Shown here piece by piece: positions 9,833-62,915 of a DNA stretch of 63,505 bases (positions within the stretch are counted from its first letter, which is position 1; the number at the start of each line of letters is the position of its first letter). Where the stretch lies: positions 1 through 63,505 of the forward strand of contig JACPHN010000190.1 in assembly GCA_016188575.1 (NCBI GenBank). Direction: 5' to 3'. Below the pieces are notes generated by a model, which was given only the letters and a program-made list of their open reading frames with translations, had not been told where the DNA came from and did not search any database. The translations under genes and the position numbers were made by a program. Source of the DNA: Candidatus Schekmanbacteria bacterium (GTDB taxonomy: Bacteria > CSSED10-310 > JACPHN01).

Positions 9833-10990
9833 ATGCGCCGAACCGACTACTTACCCTTTGGCCGACCTGATTTCACGGATGCCGAAATCGACGCCGTTAC
9901 TCGCGTCATCCGCAGTGGGTGGGTCGGCATGGGACCCGAGACGATCGCCTTCGAGAAAGAGCTCACCGCGTTTTTCGGTGCCGGTGACGTGGTCACGGTA
10001 AGCTCTTGCTCGGCGGCGCTGTTTCTGTCCTTGCGCGTGCTCGGCATCGGCCCGGGCGACGAGGTCATCTGCCCGAGCCTGACCTGGTGCAGCTCCGCGA
10101 ACGCGGCCAAGTTTCTCGGGGCGGAGGTAGTCTTTTGTGACGTCGACGCGGAGACGCTGTGCGTTACGGCGCGCACCGTGGCGCCACACCTGACGGAGCG
10201 CACGCGCGCCGTGATCGTCGTTCACTTCGGAGGGCTGCCGGCCGATATCACCGCAATCCGCGCCGGGCTCCCGGACCACGTAGCCCTTGTGGAAGACGCC
10301 GCGCACGCCTTGCCCGCGCGCTTTGCGGACGGTTCGCGCGTGGGAGCTTCCGAGAACCTGACGTGCTTCAGTTTCTACGCCAACAAGAACCTCTCGACCG
10401 GGGAGGGCGGCGCGATCGCCGTGCGCGACGCGGCAGTCGCCCGGCGGCTCCGCTCGCTGCGCCTCCACGGGCTCGACGCCGACGCCTGGGCGCGCTACTC
10501 GCAAAAGAACACGATCGTCGCCGCCGCGCCGCTTTCCGAGCTCGGTTACAAGATGAACTACACCGACTTGCAGGCGAGTCTCGGACGCGTTCAACTGCGC
10601 CGCCTCGCATCGCTTCAGAAGCGCCGCGCCGACATCGCCCAGTGCTACGTCGAGCGGCTCCCCGACGCGCTAGACGGCGTGCGCTTTCAGGCCGGGGTTC
10701 TGGAGGAGCGCCATGCCCGCCACCTCTTCCTCGTCCTGCTCCCCGAGCACCTCCGCGGTGCTCCGCGCCAGCAGCTCATCCGCGCCCTGCGTGAGGAGAA
10801 CATCGGCGTTGCTGTCCATTACATGCCGCTTCACCTCATGCCGCTGTATGGGCCGAGCGCCTCGCTACCCGTAACCGAGGACATCGCGGAGCGCGTGCTC
10901 ACGCTGCCGATCAGCGCCAGCATGGACCTCGGTGACGCGCAGAGCGTCGTGGACGCCATAAGCCGCATTGCCACGGGCAGCCTGTCCTGA
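9833..10990 (+). CDS. DegT/DnrJ/EryC1/StrS-family PLP aminotransferase
   Basis: 385 residues from the ATG at 9833. Hallmarks: the N-terminal FGRPDFTDAEIDAV, the substrate and PLP pocket VSSCSAALFLSL, VEDAAHALPA with the pyridine-binding Asp155, and the Schiff-base lysine Lys185 in FYANKNLSTGEGG. These enzymes transaminate keto-sugars (typically NDP-4-keto or 3-keto sugars) to aminosugars for O-antigen, capsule or glycan synthesis. With the FkbH/ACP/GNAT genes 2.4 kb upstream, the amino group it installs could be the acylation site. The longer frame from 9764 is rejected because the family starts near MRRTDYLPFGRP. Confidence 0.9.
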   Translation: MRRTDYLPFGRPDFTDAEIDAVTRVIRSGWVGMGPETIAFEKELTAFFGAGDVVTVSSCSAALFLSLRVLGIGPGDEVICPSLTWCSSANAAKFLGAEVVFCDVDAETLCVTARTVAPHLTERTRAVIVVHFGGLPADITAIRAGLPDHVALVEDAAHALPARFADGSRVGASENLTCFSFYANKNLSTGEGGAIAVRDAAVARRLRSLRLHGLDADAWARYSQKNTIVAAAPLSELGYKMNYTDLQASLGRVQLRRLASLQKRRADIAQCYVERLPDALDGVRFQAGVLEERHARHLFLVLLPEHLRGAPRQQLIRALREENIGVAVHYMPLHLMPLYGPSASLPVTEDIAERVLTLPISASMDLGDAQSVVDAISRIATGSLS

Positions 10991-11052
10991 CGGGACCCGC
11001 GAGCCTTGCATGGCAACACCCATGCCGCCATCGCGTTTTTTGACATCGGGCG

Positions 11053-11336
11053 CGCGGAGGGGCGCGATTTGTCGCGCCCGGTCGTCGCGGCCGGCAATCG
11101 GGGCGGGTCATTCTCGGCCAGATGAGCCCCGGCCAGGCATTGGGGCGCGATTCATCGCGCCCGGTCGTCGCGGCCGGTAATCGGGGCGGATCATTCTCGG
11201 CCAGGTGATCCCCAGCCCGGCATTGGGGCGCGATCTATCGCGCCCGGTCGTCGCGGCCGGTAATCGGGGCGGATCATTTTCGGCCAGATGATCCCCGGCC
11301 CGGCATTGGGGCGCGATCTATCGCGCCCCTCCGCGC
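11053..11336. repeat. array of an 83-bp palindromic repeat (family A)
   Basis: Three full 83-bp units begin at 11059, 11142 and 11225, and a terminal partial unit at 11308. Each unit has a hairpin of the form GGGGCGCGAT-nn-ATCGCGCCC, then a spacer with a second inverted repeat (GGATCAT...ATGATCC around a 10-base loop). The left boundary CGCGGAGGGGCGCG is the exact reverse complement of the right boundary CGCGCCCCTCCGCG, so the whole array is bounded by inverted repeats. It fills the gap between convergent genes. A one-unit copy occurs at 50024-50137, again between convergent genes. Confidence 0.85.
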
Positions 11337-14300
11337 TCATTCGTGGCCACGTTTCTCACGCGCGCCCGTAAGCTCGGCCGCCAGGTCCCGGCCACTCGTG
11401 TCAAGGGCCGCAAGCAGCGGGGCCACACGGGGGAGCGCGCCAAAGGCGGCCCGCATGCCGGCGGGAACCGCCGCAAGCGCCTCCAGGAACAGTGACGCCG
11501 CGCGCCTTCTGGCCGCCGCCGCCTCTGCCGCACCACCGCCGGCCGCCGCCAAGGCGCGGTGGCGCAACCACTCGAGCAGGTACGCCGACCGCACGTTTCC
11601 ACGCCGGTGCGCCATTTCGTTGGCGCGGCCGAGCAAATCCAGGGCCTGTCGAGCCGCCTCCGGCGCGACCTGCGGCCCGGCCAGCAGGGCTTCGGCCACA
11701 AGGAGCGCGACCTCCACCGAGGTCTCGCTGTCCACCTGTGCCGCGGGCGAATCGAGAAAAGCGAGCAGCGTCGCGAGCGTTCCGGGAGCTGCCTCGGCCT
11801 CGCTGCAATAGAGCCAGGCCAGGGACACCATTTCCACGGAACGGTAGCCAATGGCTGCGGCCGCCTCGCGCGCATGCCGCCAACTGACCACCGCGGCGTC
11901 CCCTTGTCCGGCATTCCAGTGGATTTCCGCCAGCTTTTCGCGGCACTCCGCGGCGGCAAACAGGTCGCCGTGTTGCTCCGCCAGCAAGAGTGACCGTTCG
12001 ATGTCGTCCCGCGCGCCAGCAAGGGCCCCACAATCGGCTCGCAATGCTCCGCGGGTGTAGAGCGACCAGACCAGGTCCCGGGGATGGCGCAGCGCCTCGT
12101 GCCGGGCGACTACGCGCGCGGCGCCGTCGAGCGCCACACGCAGCTCGCCGAGCTCGCGAAGCACGATGGCGCGGTTGTTTTCCTGGCGCAGGCCGGCGAG
12201 CTCGTCGCCGATGGCCAGGCTGGTGGCGGCGGCCTCGTCGAAGGCCGCCAACGCCCGTGGCAAGGCGCCGCGCTCCACAAGCAGCGCGCCGGTATTCCCG
12301 AGGACCGTCGCCAGAGCGCGGCGATCACCGATGCCACGGTAGATCTCGCGGGTGCGCTCGTAAAGGGCCTCGGCATCGTCCAGGTTCCCGGCGCGGAAGT
12401 GGAAGAGCGCGAGGTTCCCCAGAACCGTCGCGGCGCCGCGCCGATCCGGCAGCTTTGCGCAGAGCTCGAGCGCTTCCGCGCAGCGCGCACTGGCCGCTTC
12501 CGTGCGCCCGGTTTCCTGCAACACCAGGACAGAAAACGTCAGGCTCTCGGCCAGTTGCGCGTGGGCGCCCGCCGCGCGTGCTCCCGCGATCGCTTCGTCG
12601 AGGTGCCGGAGGCTCGCCGCGGGATCACCTTGCCGCCAGCTCGCGACGCCGGCGCAGCCGTGTGCGCGATGCCGCGCCGGCGCAGCGGCGTCGTCCGCGG
12701 TGACCGCGATTGCCGCCAGCGCGCTGCGGGACGCGTCGGCGTACTGCTGCACGCGCAGGTGAACGTACGCCGCGTCGAGCAAGCAGCCGATCGTCCCGGC
12801 AGCGTCCCTGGAGTGCTCGGCAATACGCGTCGCCGCCGTCAGGTCGGCGAGCGCCCCCGGCGCATCGCCCGCGAGATCGCGCACCTCAGCCCGCCTTCTC
12901 AGAATGTCCGCGCGCGCTCGCAGCTCGCTGGTCGGGAGAAGCTCGAGCGCCCGCGAGAGATAGCGCTCGGATTCCGCCAGGGCCGCTGCCTCTTGTGCTC
13001 GGGCCGCGGCCTGCAGGTAGGCTTCCCGAGCCTCGGACGCATGACCGCCCAGATCCCAGTGCCGCGCTTGCTCGGCCCAACCGCCGCGCGCCCCGGCAGG
13101 GGCCGCCGCCAACCACTCCGCCACCCCCACGTGCAGCCCCCGCTTCCGTCTCACCTCGATCCGCTCGTACGCGACCTCGCGAAGCTGATCGTGCACAAAG
13201 GTCAGCTCGCCGCCGCCGGCGTCTTCGAGGATAGCGCTGCGGAGCAAGTCGCTGAGCGCCCGATACAGCTCTCCGGAAGTCTGCCCGGCGACCTCTTCAA
13301 GCAACTGAGCATCCACGCGGCGCCCCGCGACCGCCGCCAGCTCGAGCACGCTGGTGGTCTCCGGGGCGAGCCGCGCGAGCCTGCCGGCGATGAGGTCGTG
13401 GAGGCCCCGCGGTATGGGCAACGACGCGTAGGACGTCGCGCGGGCAGCCTCGCCGACCTCGACAACCTCCCAGATCCCCCGACCCGACCGCCTCAAGTAG
13501 CCTTCTTCCACCGCGGCCCGCAGATACTGCGCGGCGTAGAACGGATTTCCTCCCGAAACCTCGCACAAGAACTGCACCAGGTGCCGGGGTTCGTAGTCGA
13601 GGGCCAGCATGTCGAAAACCATCGCGCTCAGCGCCGGAGCATCGATGGCGCGCATGAGGCAGCTATTGACTCCCGGTCTGCGGCGTGCCTCGGCAAGAGC
13701 GGCGGGCTCTTCCTCGAGCCGATACGCCACCGCGACGACCACGCGGGCATAGGAGTCAGTCGGGCTGGCGGCCACGAAGGACAGAAAGGCCAGGGACAAC
13801 TCGTCGAGCCACTGCGCGTCGTCGAGCAGGACGACAAGGGGCCCGTCCTCGGCAAGCGCGCGCAGGAGCTCGCGCAGGGCGAGAAAGAGCCGTGTCCGCG
13901 CGGCAGCGACGGGCAGCGGCGCGGGTTCGCGGTAGCGCGCGAAGCCGGGGACGAGGTGGAGGCGCGGCTCGAATGCCGCGAGAAGTGGCGCCGCGTCTCC
14001 GAGAAGCCGGGCCGTCTCCTCCTGGCCAAGCAGTGCGCACCGCTCGGCGGCGAGCTCCAGGACCGGCCGCCAGGCGCCAAGCAAGGAGCTACCGGCGCCC
14101 GTCCCCGCCCCGGCACCGTCGCCGGCACGGGTGCCTCCGACCTCGTGGCACGGACCGCGCGGCACGCTCGTGCCGACGACCGCAACCCGCTGCTGAGTCA
14201 GCAGGCGCACGAGCTCCAGCAGCACCCGCGTCTTGCCGATGCCGCTCTCACCAGCCAGGAGCGCGAGGGTTCCCGGAGTCGCGACAAGCTGCGCCTGCTC

Positions 14301-49137: not shown

Positions 49138-50010
49138 ATGATCCAGGAATACATGCACCACCTCGAACGCAAGAACGGCCTGCCGCAACTACACGCTGCG
49201 TTCCTCCAGACGTCGCTGCCGCGGCTGCAGGCCGATGAGCGGATCGTGGCCGTCGCCGCGGCCGGCTCGTTTCTCACTGGCGACATCGACGAGTACAGCG
49301 ACCTGGATCTCGTCATCGTCGTCGAACCCGCCGCCGCGCCGCAGATCATGCAGGAACGTCGGGAAATCGCGGCACCCCTCGGGCCCTTGCTCGCGGCCTT
49401 CACCGGCGAGCACGTCGGCGAGCCGCGCCTGCTGATCTGCCTCTATGGCCCGCCGCTGTTGCACGTGGACCTGAAGTTTGTCTCCTTGTCCGATGCGGCG
49501 TGCCGCTGCGAAGACCCGGTGATCCTGTGGGAGCGCGCGGGGCGGCTGACCGCAATGTTCCGGCAAGCCGCGGCCGTGGCACCGACCCCAGATCTGCAGT
49601 GGCTCGAAGATCGGTTCTGGGTATGGGTGCACTATGTGGCAGCCAAGATCGGACGGGGCGAGCTGATGGAGACCCTCGATGCCCTCGCCTTCCTCCGGCG
49701 GCTGGTGCTCGGTCCGCTCGCGCTCCATGCGCAGGGATGTCCTCCAGCAGGCGTCAGGAAGGTGGAAACCCGCGCCAAGCCCTACGTTGAAGACTTGCTA
49801 CTGACGACCGCCCCCAATGATCGGCCGGCATGTATCGGCGCGTTGAGGGCCGCCGTGAGCTTGTATCGCAGGTTACGGGGCAGACTGGCCACAGAGGCTC
49901 TGACTGTCCACACAGCAGCCGAAGAGGCGGCGTTGAGTTACGTGGCGGAGATTGAAAACCTCATGGCTTCATCAGCCGGTCCGAAACCCTTCGACGCTCA
50001 CGTGAAATGA
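49138..50010 (+). CDS. nucleotidyltransferase-fold protein
   Basis: 290 residues. AAGSFLTGDIDEYSDLDLVIV holds the pol-beta-type nucleotidyltransferase signature: Gly43-Ser44 and the two metal-binding aspartates Asp55 and Asp57. The remainder (LRLLVLGPLAL-like helices) is similar to helical C-terminal regions of aminoglycoside adenylyltransferase-like proteins. It would transfer a nucleotide to a small molecule, protein or antitoxin-like target; substrate unknown. It is a single gene converging on the methyltransferase operon, with a family A repeat in the gap. Confidence 0.7.
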   Translation: MIQEYMHHLERKNGLPQLHAAFLQTSLPRLQADERIVAVAAAGSFLTGDIDEYSDLDLVIVVEPAAAPQIMQERREIAAPLGPLLAAFTGEHVGEPRLLICLYGPPLLHVDLKFVSLSDAACRCEDPVILWERAGRLTAMFRQAAAVAPTPDLQWLEDRFWVWVHYVAAKIGRGELMETLDALAFLRRLVLGPLALHAQGCPPAGVRKVETRAKPYVEDLLLTTAPNDRPACIGALRAAVSLYRRLRGRLATEALTVHTAAEEAALSYVAEIENLMASSAGPKPFDAHVK

Positions 50011-50023
50011 CAGGAGCCGCCAC

Positions 50024-50137
50024 GCAAGGGCGCGATTTATCGCGCCCGGTCGTTGCGGCCGGTAATCCGGGCGGATCATTCTCGGCCCGATGATCCCCGG
50101 CCCGGCATTGGGCGCGATGATTCGCGCCCCTCCGCGC
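50024..50137. repeat. single unit of the 83-bp palindromic repeat (family A)
   Basis: GGGCGCGATTTATCGCGCCC, then the spacer GGTCGTTGCGGCCGGTAATC with GGATCAT...ATGATCC, then GGGCGCGATGATTCGCGCCC and CTCCGCG. It matches the units at 11059-11336 at roughly nine positions in ten. The locus again separates convergent genes. Confidence 0.8.
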
Positions 50138-50365
50138 CGAACGTGCGGCGTGAAGAAGTGTAATGGACGAAACCAGACATTCGGTCGATGCCGCACTTTG
50201 GGACGAAATGACAGTATCGAGTCTTTTGCCGGTACGCACTTGCGACAACGGCTCCCCGATCGGCCGTCTGTGTGGGATCACAAGGCGCCGCGATGACGTG
50301 CGGAGAAGGCGTCCGCGGCGTACCGGCCCCAGGGTGCCGCAGCATGCTCGGCGGTGCGCAGGTGT
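50138..50365. other. intergenic sequence after the repeat
   Basis: About 230 bases follow the repeat before the convergent methyltransferase gene ends. I see no gene, terminator or known element. Confidence 0.35.
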
Positions 50366-51733
50366 TCACTCTCTGTCGCGGCGGAATAGCGCGAAGGCCC
50401 GCTCGTCTACGGCGTAACCGTTCGCAGCGAGCGTCGCGAAAAATCGCTCCGGCTCGGGGCCAAAACTGGAGAAGTCGAAGAGACCGAGCTGGCGCAGCGA
50501 TTCGTCGAAGGCCTGTTGGCGGGCGTATCCGTCCTGGTCCGCCGCCATGAATCGCGACTTGAGGTAGAGGATCGGCGCTGCCGGCCGCCCGGAGTAGTCA
50601 TAGCAGTCGATATCCTGCGCGCGCAGGTCGATCTTGATGCGCTCTCGCAGCCGGGGTAGCGGCGAGCTGTCGAACTGGTCGTAGGTCATCAGCGATACTT
50701 TTCCCGAGCGGATGTGGATCTTGAGCAGGTGGGCCGTTTCCACGTCTCCGTAGAGCTTCGCCGCGCAGCCCACGTAACAGCGCAGCGCCGCGGGAAGTCG
50801 CGTCAGGAGCTCGGTGGGAAGCTGCAGGTATTCACCCTCCGCCAGCCATCCCACGCCATGCTCGTGCGCGGCGCGGCAAGCGGCGTCGATCACCGGCCCC
50901 TGTCCAACCGAGAACAGGAGCTCGCGGGCCGCTTCCTGGGCGCGCGCGTGACTGCCAAAGAGCGCCTTCACGTCGCGCCGCAGCTCGGGCGGCAGCTCCG
51001 CGTAGCGGGTGCGCCTCGCGAACAGGTTGAGCGCGAAGTAGACGAGAAGATCATCGCGACGCTGTCGCGACGAGGCCGCGAGCGCCGCAGGATCGAGCTG
51101 CCTCCGGGCCGGGCGCTCCGCGCGGCGCGGCGAGCCGACCCCGACCGGCACCACCGCCGCCGCCTCGCGACGCTGTTGCCGCTCCAGCAGGAACCGCTGC
51201 TCGAGCAACTTGTCCGGAAACACGAAGAAGACCCCATGGGCTACGGCGATCGCTTCTTCGCCAAGCACCTCCGCGATGAACGCGCCGAGCTCGTCTTGCC
51301 GGAAGTACTTCTGGAAAGTGCCACGCCTGGTGAGAAAGCCATCCTTGAACGGCTGCAGACCGGTCGTGTCACCCTTGCCCACGACCAGTCCCGCCACCGC
51401 CAGGCACTGTCGCGCCAACCCGTAGGCCCGGGCGAGCGCTTCTCGACGTTCCACTCTGTCTTCGATCACGTTGAGCACAAAGCCGAGATTGACGATGTCG
51501 GCGGGCTCGAGCGGCACGTCCGCCGCGAAGTACGGGTCCCACCCCACGGCGCGAATCCCGGCTGCCACCAACGCGCGGACGTCGTCCCCTTGGCCGCAGC
51601 CGTAGTCGAGCACCGAGCGGTCCTCCGCAAACAGCCCATGCCGGTCCAGCGCTTGCATCGGGGCCGACAAGCGATCGCGCGAGATCGCCGTCCGGTGCCG
51701 GTCGATGGGCCACGGCCCGTCCGCGAGGTCCAT
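50366..51733 (-). CDS. DNA phosphorothioation-associated methyltransferase, C-terminal half
   Basis: 455 residues from the ATG at 51733. It begins with DRHRTAISRDRLSAPMQALD and a SAM-binding motif VLDYGCGQGDDVRALVAAG, then ADIVNLGFVLNVIEDRVERR, as in the putative methyltransferases often found near dnd DNA phosphorothioation genes. Later segments (LLVYFALNLFARRTRYAELP, RIKIDLRAQDIDCYDYSGRP) also match that family. The upstream frame, in the same reading frame, ends with TAG at 51742-51740 only two codons before this ATG, and contains the family's usual N-terminal domain. So the full protein appears interrupted by one amber codon. No dndBCDE genes are in the window. Confidence 0.72.
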   Translation of the reverse strand: MDLADGPWPIDRHRTAISRDRLSAPMQALDRHGLFAEDRSVLDYGCGQGDDVRALVAAGIRAVGWDPYFAADVPLEPADIVNLGFVLNVIEDRVERREALARAYGLARQCLAVAGLVVGKGDTTGLQPFKDGFLTRRGTFQKYFRQDELGAFIAEVLGEEAIAVAHGVFFVFPDKLLEQRFLLERQQRREAAAVVPVGVGSPRRAERPARRQLDPAALAASSRQRRDDLLVYFALNLFARRTRYAELPPELRRDVKALFGSHARAQEAARELLFSVGQGPVIDAACRAAHEHGVGWLAEGEYLQLPTELLTRLPAALRCYVGCAAKLYGDVETAHLLKIHIRSGKVSLMTYDQFDSSPLPRLRERIKIDLRAQDIDCYDYSGRPAAPILYLKSRFMAADQDGYARQQAFDESLRQLGLFDFSSFGPEPERFFATLAANGYAVDERAFALFRRDRE

Positions 51734-53589: not shown

Positions 53590-54010
53590 TCATTCATCGC
53601 GGCGAACGAGCGAGCAGGTTCAAGACACAACGGCACCTGGCGGCGGATCAACGACACCATACGCGGCATGGCACGGACGGCGGCTGGCCGCGAGGAATCG
53701 CTCAGTCTGGGCATCATCGATACCCCCGGGGGTTGCTGATCGTGGTGGCGGTGCACGCCGCCGACATTCAGGATCGCGACGGGGCGAGGTAGGTCTTCGC
53801 CAAGCTCCTGGGGTAGCGACTGCCGGGACTGCAGGCGGTGCTGGCAGATGGAATCTACAACGGCGACATCGGTCCGTGGCTCCGTCGCACCCGTCGCTTG
53901 CAGTTGCACGTGGTGGAGCGGCCCCCGGGCACGAAGGGGATCACAGTGGTGCCCAAGCGCTGGGTCGTGGAGCGCACCTTCGCCTGGGTGGGGCGCTGCC
54001 GCCTGACCTC
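53590..54010 (+). pseudogene. degraded IS5-family transposase
   Basis: Several frames carry pieces of an IS5-type DDE transposase: WRRINDTIRGMARTAAGREE, then after a gap VVAVHAADIQDRDGAR, two in-frame stops, QAVLADGIYNGDIGPWLRRT, and PKRWVVERTFAWVGRCR, the C-terminal signature containing the catalytic Glu. The usual ~40 residues around the first DDE aspartate are missing. Terminal inverted repeats were not found. It is an old, inactive remnant in the spacer between two gene blocks. Confidence 0.8.
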
Positions 54011-62426: not shown

Positions 62427-62915
62427 CTTTTTCTAGCTCCCGGCTGGTTAGTGGCTGACACCCGATTGCATGCAAACTTCGTGCCGCAACTGGCGGTAGC
62501 TTCCCCTGACTCGGGAGAGCCCGGGCATTTTCTTGGCAGCCGCCCACGGATAGCAGCGGAGACACTTTCCGCTTCGCTTTCGGGGTAACGCAAACGGCCT
62601 TGAGACCGATTCGCGCCGGCCATGGATCGATCCGAGCAAGAAACCGCGGCGCCGCGCCGCCCCCAGGGCATGGTATTTGCCGCCATAATGGAGACGCCTG
62701 CCGAGCGCGCTCTACACCACGACCAGCCCAATGCGCGTGGACACTCGCAAAGAAGCATCACCCAACATTCGGCCGACGCCCATTTCCTCGCTCGTTTCGG
62801 TGCCCGTGAGCGGGACACTATTGCCCCGCGACCGCCACGGTGTTGTCGTCAGGATTGCGATCGATGAGCTTGTTGAGCGGAGCGATGCCGGCGCGGGCCG
62901 GCCGCTCCCTGACCA
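62427..62915. other. upstream region of the phosphoesterase and insertion-sequence boundary
   Basis: 489 bases with no supported gene. The minus strand upstream of the phosphoesterase start forms GC-rich inverted repeats (for example CCCGGGCTCTCCCGAG around 62505-62525), but no known riboswitch core was recognised. The right part is likely insertion-sequence remnant. Confidence 0.35.

Follow-up and report, generated by a model that had tools for sequence, protein, structure and literature searches.

The window, the 63,505 nucleotides of Candidatus Schekmanbacteria DNA analyzed here, contains a hairpin array between a DegT aminotransferase gene (plus strand, stop at 10990) and a convergent minus-strand gene for a Ser-Thr kinase-AAA-TPR protein, whose stop codon (11337–11339) directly adjoins the array. 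A related single-unit copy lies between a nucleotidyltransferase-like gene (plus strand, stop at 50010) and a weakly methyltransferase-like gene (minus strand, ending at 50366); these gene calls agree with an initial annotation of the sequence, which had placed both loci in convergent gaps. The annotation had missed a third element near the end of the window. Features are as follows, with MITE denoting the non-autonomous DNA transposon to which we assign them below.

11052–11336, plus strand: tandem array of the putative MITE core, three 83-bp units and a closing hairpin; the outer MITE ends of full-length copies are missing
11059–11141, plus strand: unit 1, with hairpin A at 11059–11079 and hairpin B at about 11105–11128
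11142–11224, plus strand: unit 2
11225–11307, plus strand: unit 3
11308–11336, plus strand: closing hairpin A (11308–11329) and inverted end
50016–50192, plus strand: single-unit MITE copy; the left ~30 bp are lost and the right terminal repeat, GGCATCGACCGAATGT (minus strand), is at 50177–50192
62693–62780, minus strand: MITE of an 88-bp sub-family, compared by eye with other 88-bp elements; the terminal repeat at 62765–62780 is intact and the other end is degenerate

Structure of the array

The array has the organization first described for it: unit starts at 11059, 11142 and 11225 give an exact 83-base period, and a half unit closes the series, and the array has three units and four hairpins. 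The units are 90–91% identical (over 104 nt). The ends (11052–11079 and 11309–11336), previously recognized as reverse complements, are 28-nt inverted repeats with 89% complementarity, the left edge repeating the right flank in inverted orientation. Folding of the array is far more stable than that of shuffled sequences (z = −7.0). Since a GGCCAG variant is present in all three units and in only 2 of 30 other aligned copies, the units appear to have arisen by local duplication. This is the only place in the genome where we saw tandem expansion of the core. The single-unit copy, reported at 50024–50137, is also real, with homology extending across 50016–50192 and ending in a terminal repeat.

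The 83-bp unit is part of a larger element with terminal inverted repeats

We searched the genome (9.2 Mb in 275 contigs broken at repeats, 94% complete) with a 24-nt core pattern, allowing up to three mismatches, and obtained 50 matches compared with none for the reversed control. The unit is therefore not limited to two places; at least 50 core copies were counted, and the genome-wide number is roughly 50–60. Reading outward from these copies revealed a conserved full element of ~208 bp, in the order GGCGTCGGCCGAATGT-GC-TTTACACCTGAGGCCGCCACGCA, hairpin A1, a middle of ~62 bp containing the central hairpin B, hairpin A2 and TCCGCGCCGAACCTGCGGCGTGAAGAAGTGTAAAGGACGAAACCGGACATTCGGCCGACGCC. The outer 16 bp form terminal inverted repeats (GGCGTCGGCCGAATGT) that match across independent copies, and inside the repeats is a TTTACA box, about one helical turn deeper on one side than on the other. 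Hairpins A1 and A2 are an inverted pair of ~20-bp, REP-type palindromes; the final hairpin of the array has a loop of the A1 type.

Several observations support mobility, one of the possibilities raised by the initial annotation. At 17 of 70 candidate end pairs the flanking 8 bp are identical at seven or more positions, compared with none at other offsets, and the duplicated target has the A/T-centered consensus SRAWWTYS. Three pairs of neighboring elements lie exactly 8 bp apart, and no pair shows any other distance within 100 bp; such spacing is expected when a later insertion uses the duplicated target left by an earlier element. These elements thus have the hallmarks of MITEs, namely shared terminal inverted repeats, a target duplication of fixed length, and a short, non-coding, multi-copy sequence. 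Size classes run from about 88 to 212 bp, far shorter than a transposase gene. We consider it very likely that such a non-autonomous transposon has the 83-bp unit as its core, a degree of confidence that applies jointly to this assignment and to the explanation presented here as a whole.

The 16-bp end alone, with up to two mismatches, occurs at 294 genome sites (7 in the control). These ~290 end sites thus belong to several sub-families, of about 88, 127, 150 and 208 bp. One sub-family of 127–128 bp (L058, L080, L092, L311, L314 and L049) has the same ends around an unrelated, non-REP interior, GCATCCCAGGCGGCTTTTGGGC, indicating that these ends mobilize different cargo. The end-plus-TTTACA pattern occurs 129 times in this genome and 0 times in seven genomes of the same phylum; outside the phylum, there were two matches, each with three mismatches (385 other genomes searched, these seven included). 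Core copies and ends alike are essentially absent from these 385 genomes. Among the genomes searched, the MITE is species restricted. Plasmids contained no match to the element, viral contigs contained no match to the end pattern, and an Rfam search returned no family at the gathering score.

Unit number varies between loci

The proposal that unit number differs between loci also held, with 0, 1 or 3 units present. Elements of 125–128 bp (L047, L076 and L089) have one hairpin and no 83-bp unit, while those of ~208 bp have two hairpins and one unit; the difference in length is about one unit. Probably A1 and A2, as near-identical palindromes 83 bp apart, permitted slippage or unequal recombination, leading to loss of the unit in certain copies (125 bp) and to its multiplication at 11052–11336. 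Three features of the array do not fit easily: it lacks the outer terminal repeats, simple slippage does not account for its inverted left end, and its last hairpin has the A1-type loop.

What enzyme moves the element? We infer that a DDE-type transposase, acting in trans, recognized the ends; the responsible gene may have been lost or may lie in unassembled sequence. Transposases of the ISL3, IS1595, IS256 and IS240/IS6 types are absent from the assembly, which is 94% complete and broken at repeats. MITE ends were found at none of 10 DDE_Tnp_1 genes, and no end pairs 0.5–6 kb apart had matching 8-bp flanks. The window itself contains a degraded DDE_Tnp_1 remnant (53724–54005, plus strand) with two in-frame stops and no MITE ends nearby.

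Relationship to REP and BIME sequences

The locus had been described as REP/BIME-like, a description that fits the core, which is an outward-tagged dimer of REP-type hairpins, but not the whole, which is bounded by terminal repeats and 8-bp duplications. Hairpin A falls within the size range of REPs (a 20–40 bp palindrome with a short loop) and resembles GTAG-type REP palindromes. Free GTAG-CGGCGCGATTCATCGCGCCG copies occur outside the MITE at tens of sites in this genome, often as tail-to-tail pairs, and GTAGGGGCGCGATNNATCGCGCCC pairs in opposite orientation are found in other, unrelated phyla. Judging from this likeness, hairpin A may descend from these GTAG REPs or may only look like them.

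Could the element be a REP/BIME (REPIN) element proper, in which the hairpin pair is itself the mobile unit, moved in single-stranded form by a RAYT? The palindromes described above and the arrangement of A1 and A2, a dimer with its tags facing outward of the kind known from many REP families (PMC3733652), are consistent with such an origin. However, copies bounded by MITE terminal repeats and 8-bp duplications are not expected from a Y1 transposase. Moreover, REPs carry a conserved GTAG/CGTC tag, whereas the tag within the MITE is mostly GCAG or GGAG, with true GTAG found mainly outside it, and the S. maltophilia enzyme examined in PMC8266576 hardly cut GCAG. A search of the genome for a REP-associated tyrosine transposase yielded no RAYT: the hairpins of the MITE flank none of the eight Y1_Tnp genes, and the three Y1 genes that we scored are all of the IS200 type, far below the RAYT cut-off. 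Movement of the hairpin pair by a RAYT is thus very improbable.

Under the MITE explanation, it is possible, although we think it rather unlikely, that the MITE took up a GTAG-type REP dimer, which it now disseminates without a RAYT, with the expansion at 11052–11336 representing a step toward a BIME-like array. If so, the REP-type palindromes of this genome would ride on a DDE transposon.

Genomic position and possible function

Statistics on position were compiled from 1.25 Mb of tiles and 40 regions using a simple codon-usage gene caller, so that calls are approximate. All 17 paired elements in the tiled DNA are intergenic, although only 14% of this DNA is non-coding. Since the target octamer is not denser between genes (0.80 per kb, compared with 0.90), the bias does not arise from commoner targets. 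It probably reflects the loss of insertions that hit genes, as opposed to insertion directed at convergent gaps or selection for a role in termination.

For orientation, we counted copies of the core sub-family with both neighbors known, leaving out loci at contig ends. Of these, 18 lie between codirectional genes, 10 between convergent and 9 between divergent ones, compared with 475, 117 and 134 such gaps in the background; this refutes the earlier proposal that the element is confined to convergent gaps. The convergent share (10/37, against a background of 16%) gives p = 0.08 by gap count and 0.17 by length; orientation is therefore near background, with room for a mild convergent excess.

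The element had also been proposed to act in bidirectional termination. That it is a functional terminator, or an mRNA-stabilizing structure, kept between convergent genes would be in keeping with its very stable fold, the convergent setting of both window copies first noted, and the slight excess just described. However, no T-tract follows any hairpin (0 in 10900–11450), as an intrinsic terminator would have, most copies lie outside convergent gaps, and covariation, whether in the local hairpins or the long-range stem, does not rise above that in shuffles. We regard this function as very improbable. Less probable still is a BIME-2-like role for the array in binding gyrase or nucleoid proteins, with unit number under selection; the inverted hairpin pairs and tandem arrangement are BIME-like, but we saw just a single tandem array genome-wide, all other copies found having one unit or none.

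Most likely, the element is a selfish mini-transposon with a REP-type dimer inside, and its local amplification is incidental; it probably does not serve as a dedicated intergenic switch. The functional role in convergent gaps, plausible but wrong, had been drawn from two loci only and is corrected here.

Comparison with known elements

The family is new but of a familiar kind, its best parallels being bacterial MITEs generally and BrickBuilt. Like bacterial MITEs of the RUP, Correia/NEMIS, ERIC and Nezha type, it falls within the range of 70–300 bp, has terminal inverted repeats and a target duplication, lacks an ORF, and is high-copy and intergenic, with a long self-complementary fold. It differs in that, of the genomes searched, this one alone yielded its ends, its core is a REP-type dimer, and its transposase is at present putative. 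BrickBuilt and 464/PgRS of Porphyromonas gingivalis are species-restricted intergenic MITEs containing a minisatellite (PMC4596501). They too have tandem repeats inside a MITE, with units from one upward between copies; however, the unit here is 83 bp with hairpins (theirs is 23 or 41 nt), only one expanded copy was seen, and the 8-bp target duplication is consistent. GTAG-tagged REPs and their head-head dimers (PMC3733652) share the 20-bp GC-rich palindrome with a 2-nt loop, inverted with tags outward, and REP dimers nested in longer palindromes are known, such as GTAG-15 in Anabaena variabilis (PMC3733652). By contrast, the tag here is degenerate (GCAG/GGAG), insertion occurs via outer terminal repeats, and no RAYT was found.

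A poorly sampled bacterial lineage thus gains a well-defined family of MITEs, whose ends, target rule and sub-families are clear, and a REP-type hairpin pair is shown to be able to reside within an unrelated transposon and undergo tandem expansion there.

Other repeats and mobile elements

About 20 loci (L363–L388) carry a second repeat family, in which tail-to-tail GTAG palindromes are followed by a conserved tract, ...GGGGTTTCAGACCGGCTGACGAATGGATGAGGCATCGTTGCGG; this is possibly a separate element. Ends of group II introns (Rfam RF00029) map to MITE arms or to loci that contain MITEs, at points where contigs break (L083:59–137, L090:144–222, L096:553–631 and L338:3716–3794), which suggests that the palindromic MITEs serve as insertion sites for group II introns. 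In addition, L018, L028, L029, L082 and L087 share an unrelated insert inside hairpin A2, which starts with CCCACGAGTTGCGCAACGAGCGGCAG or the reverse of it. Hairpin A2 thus also serves as a target for some other mobile element.
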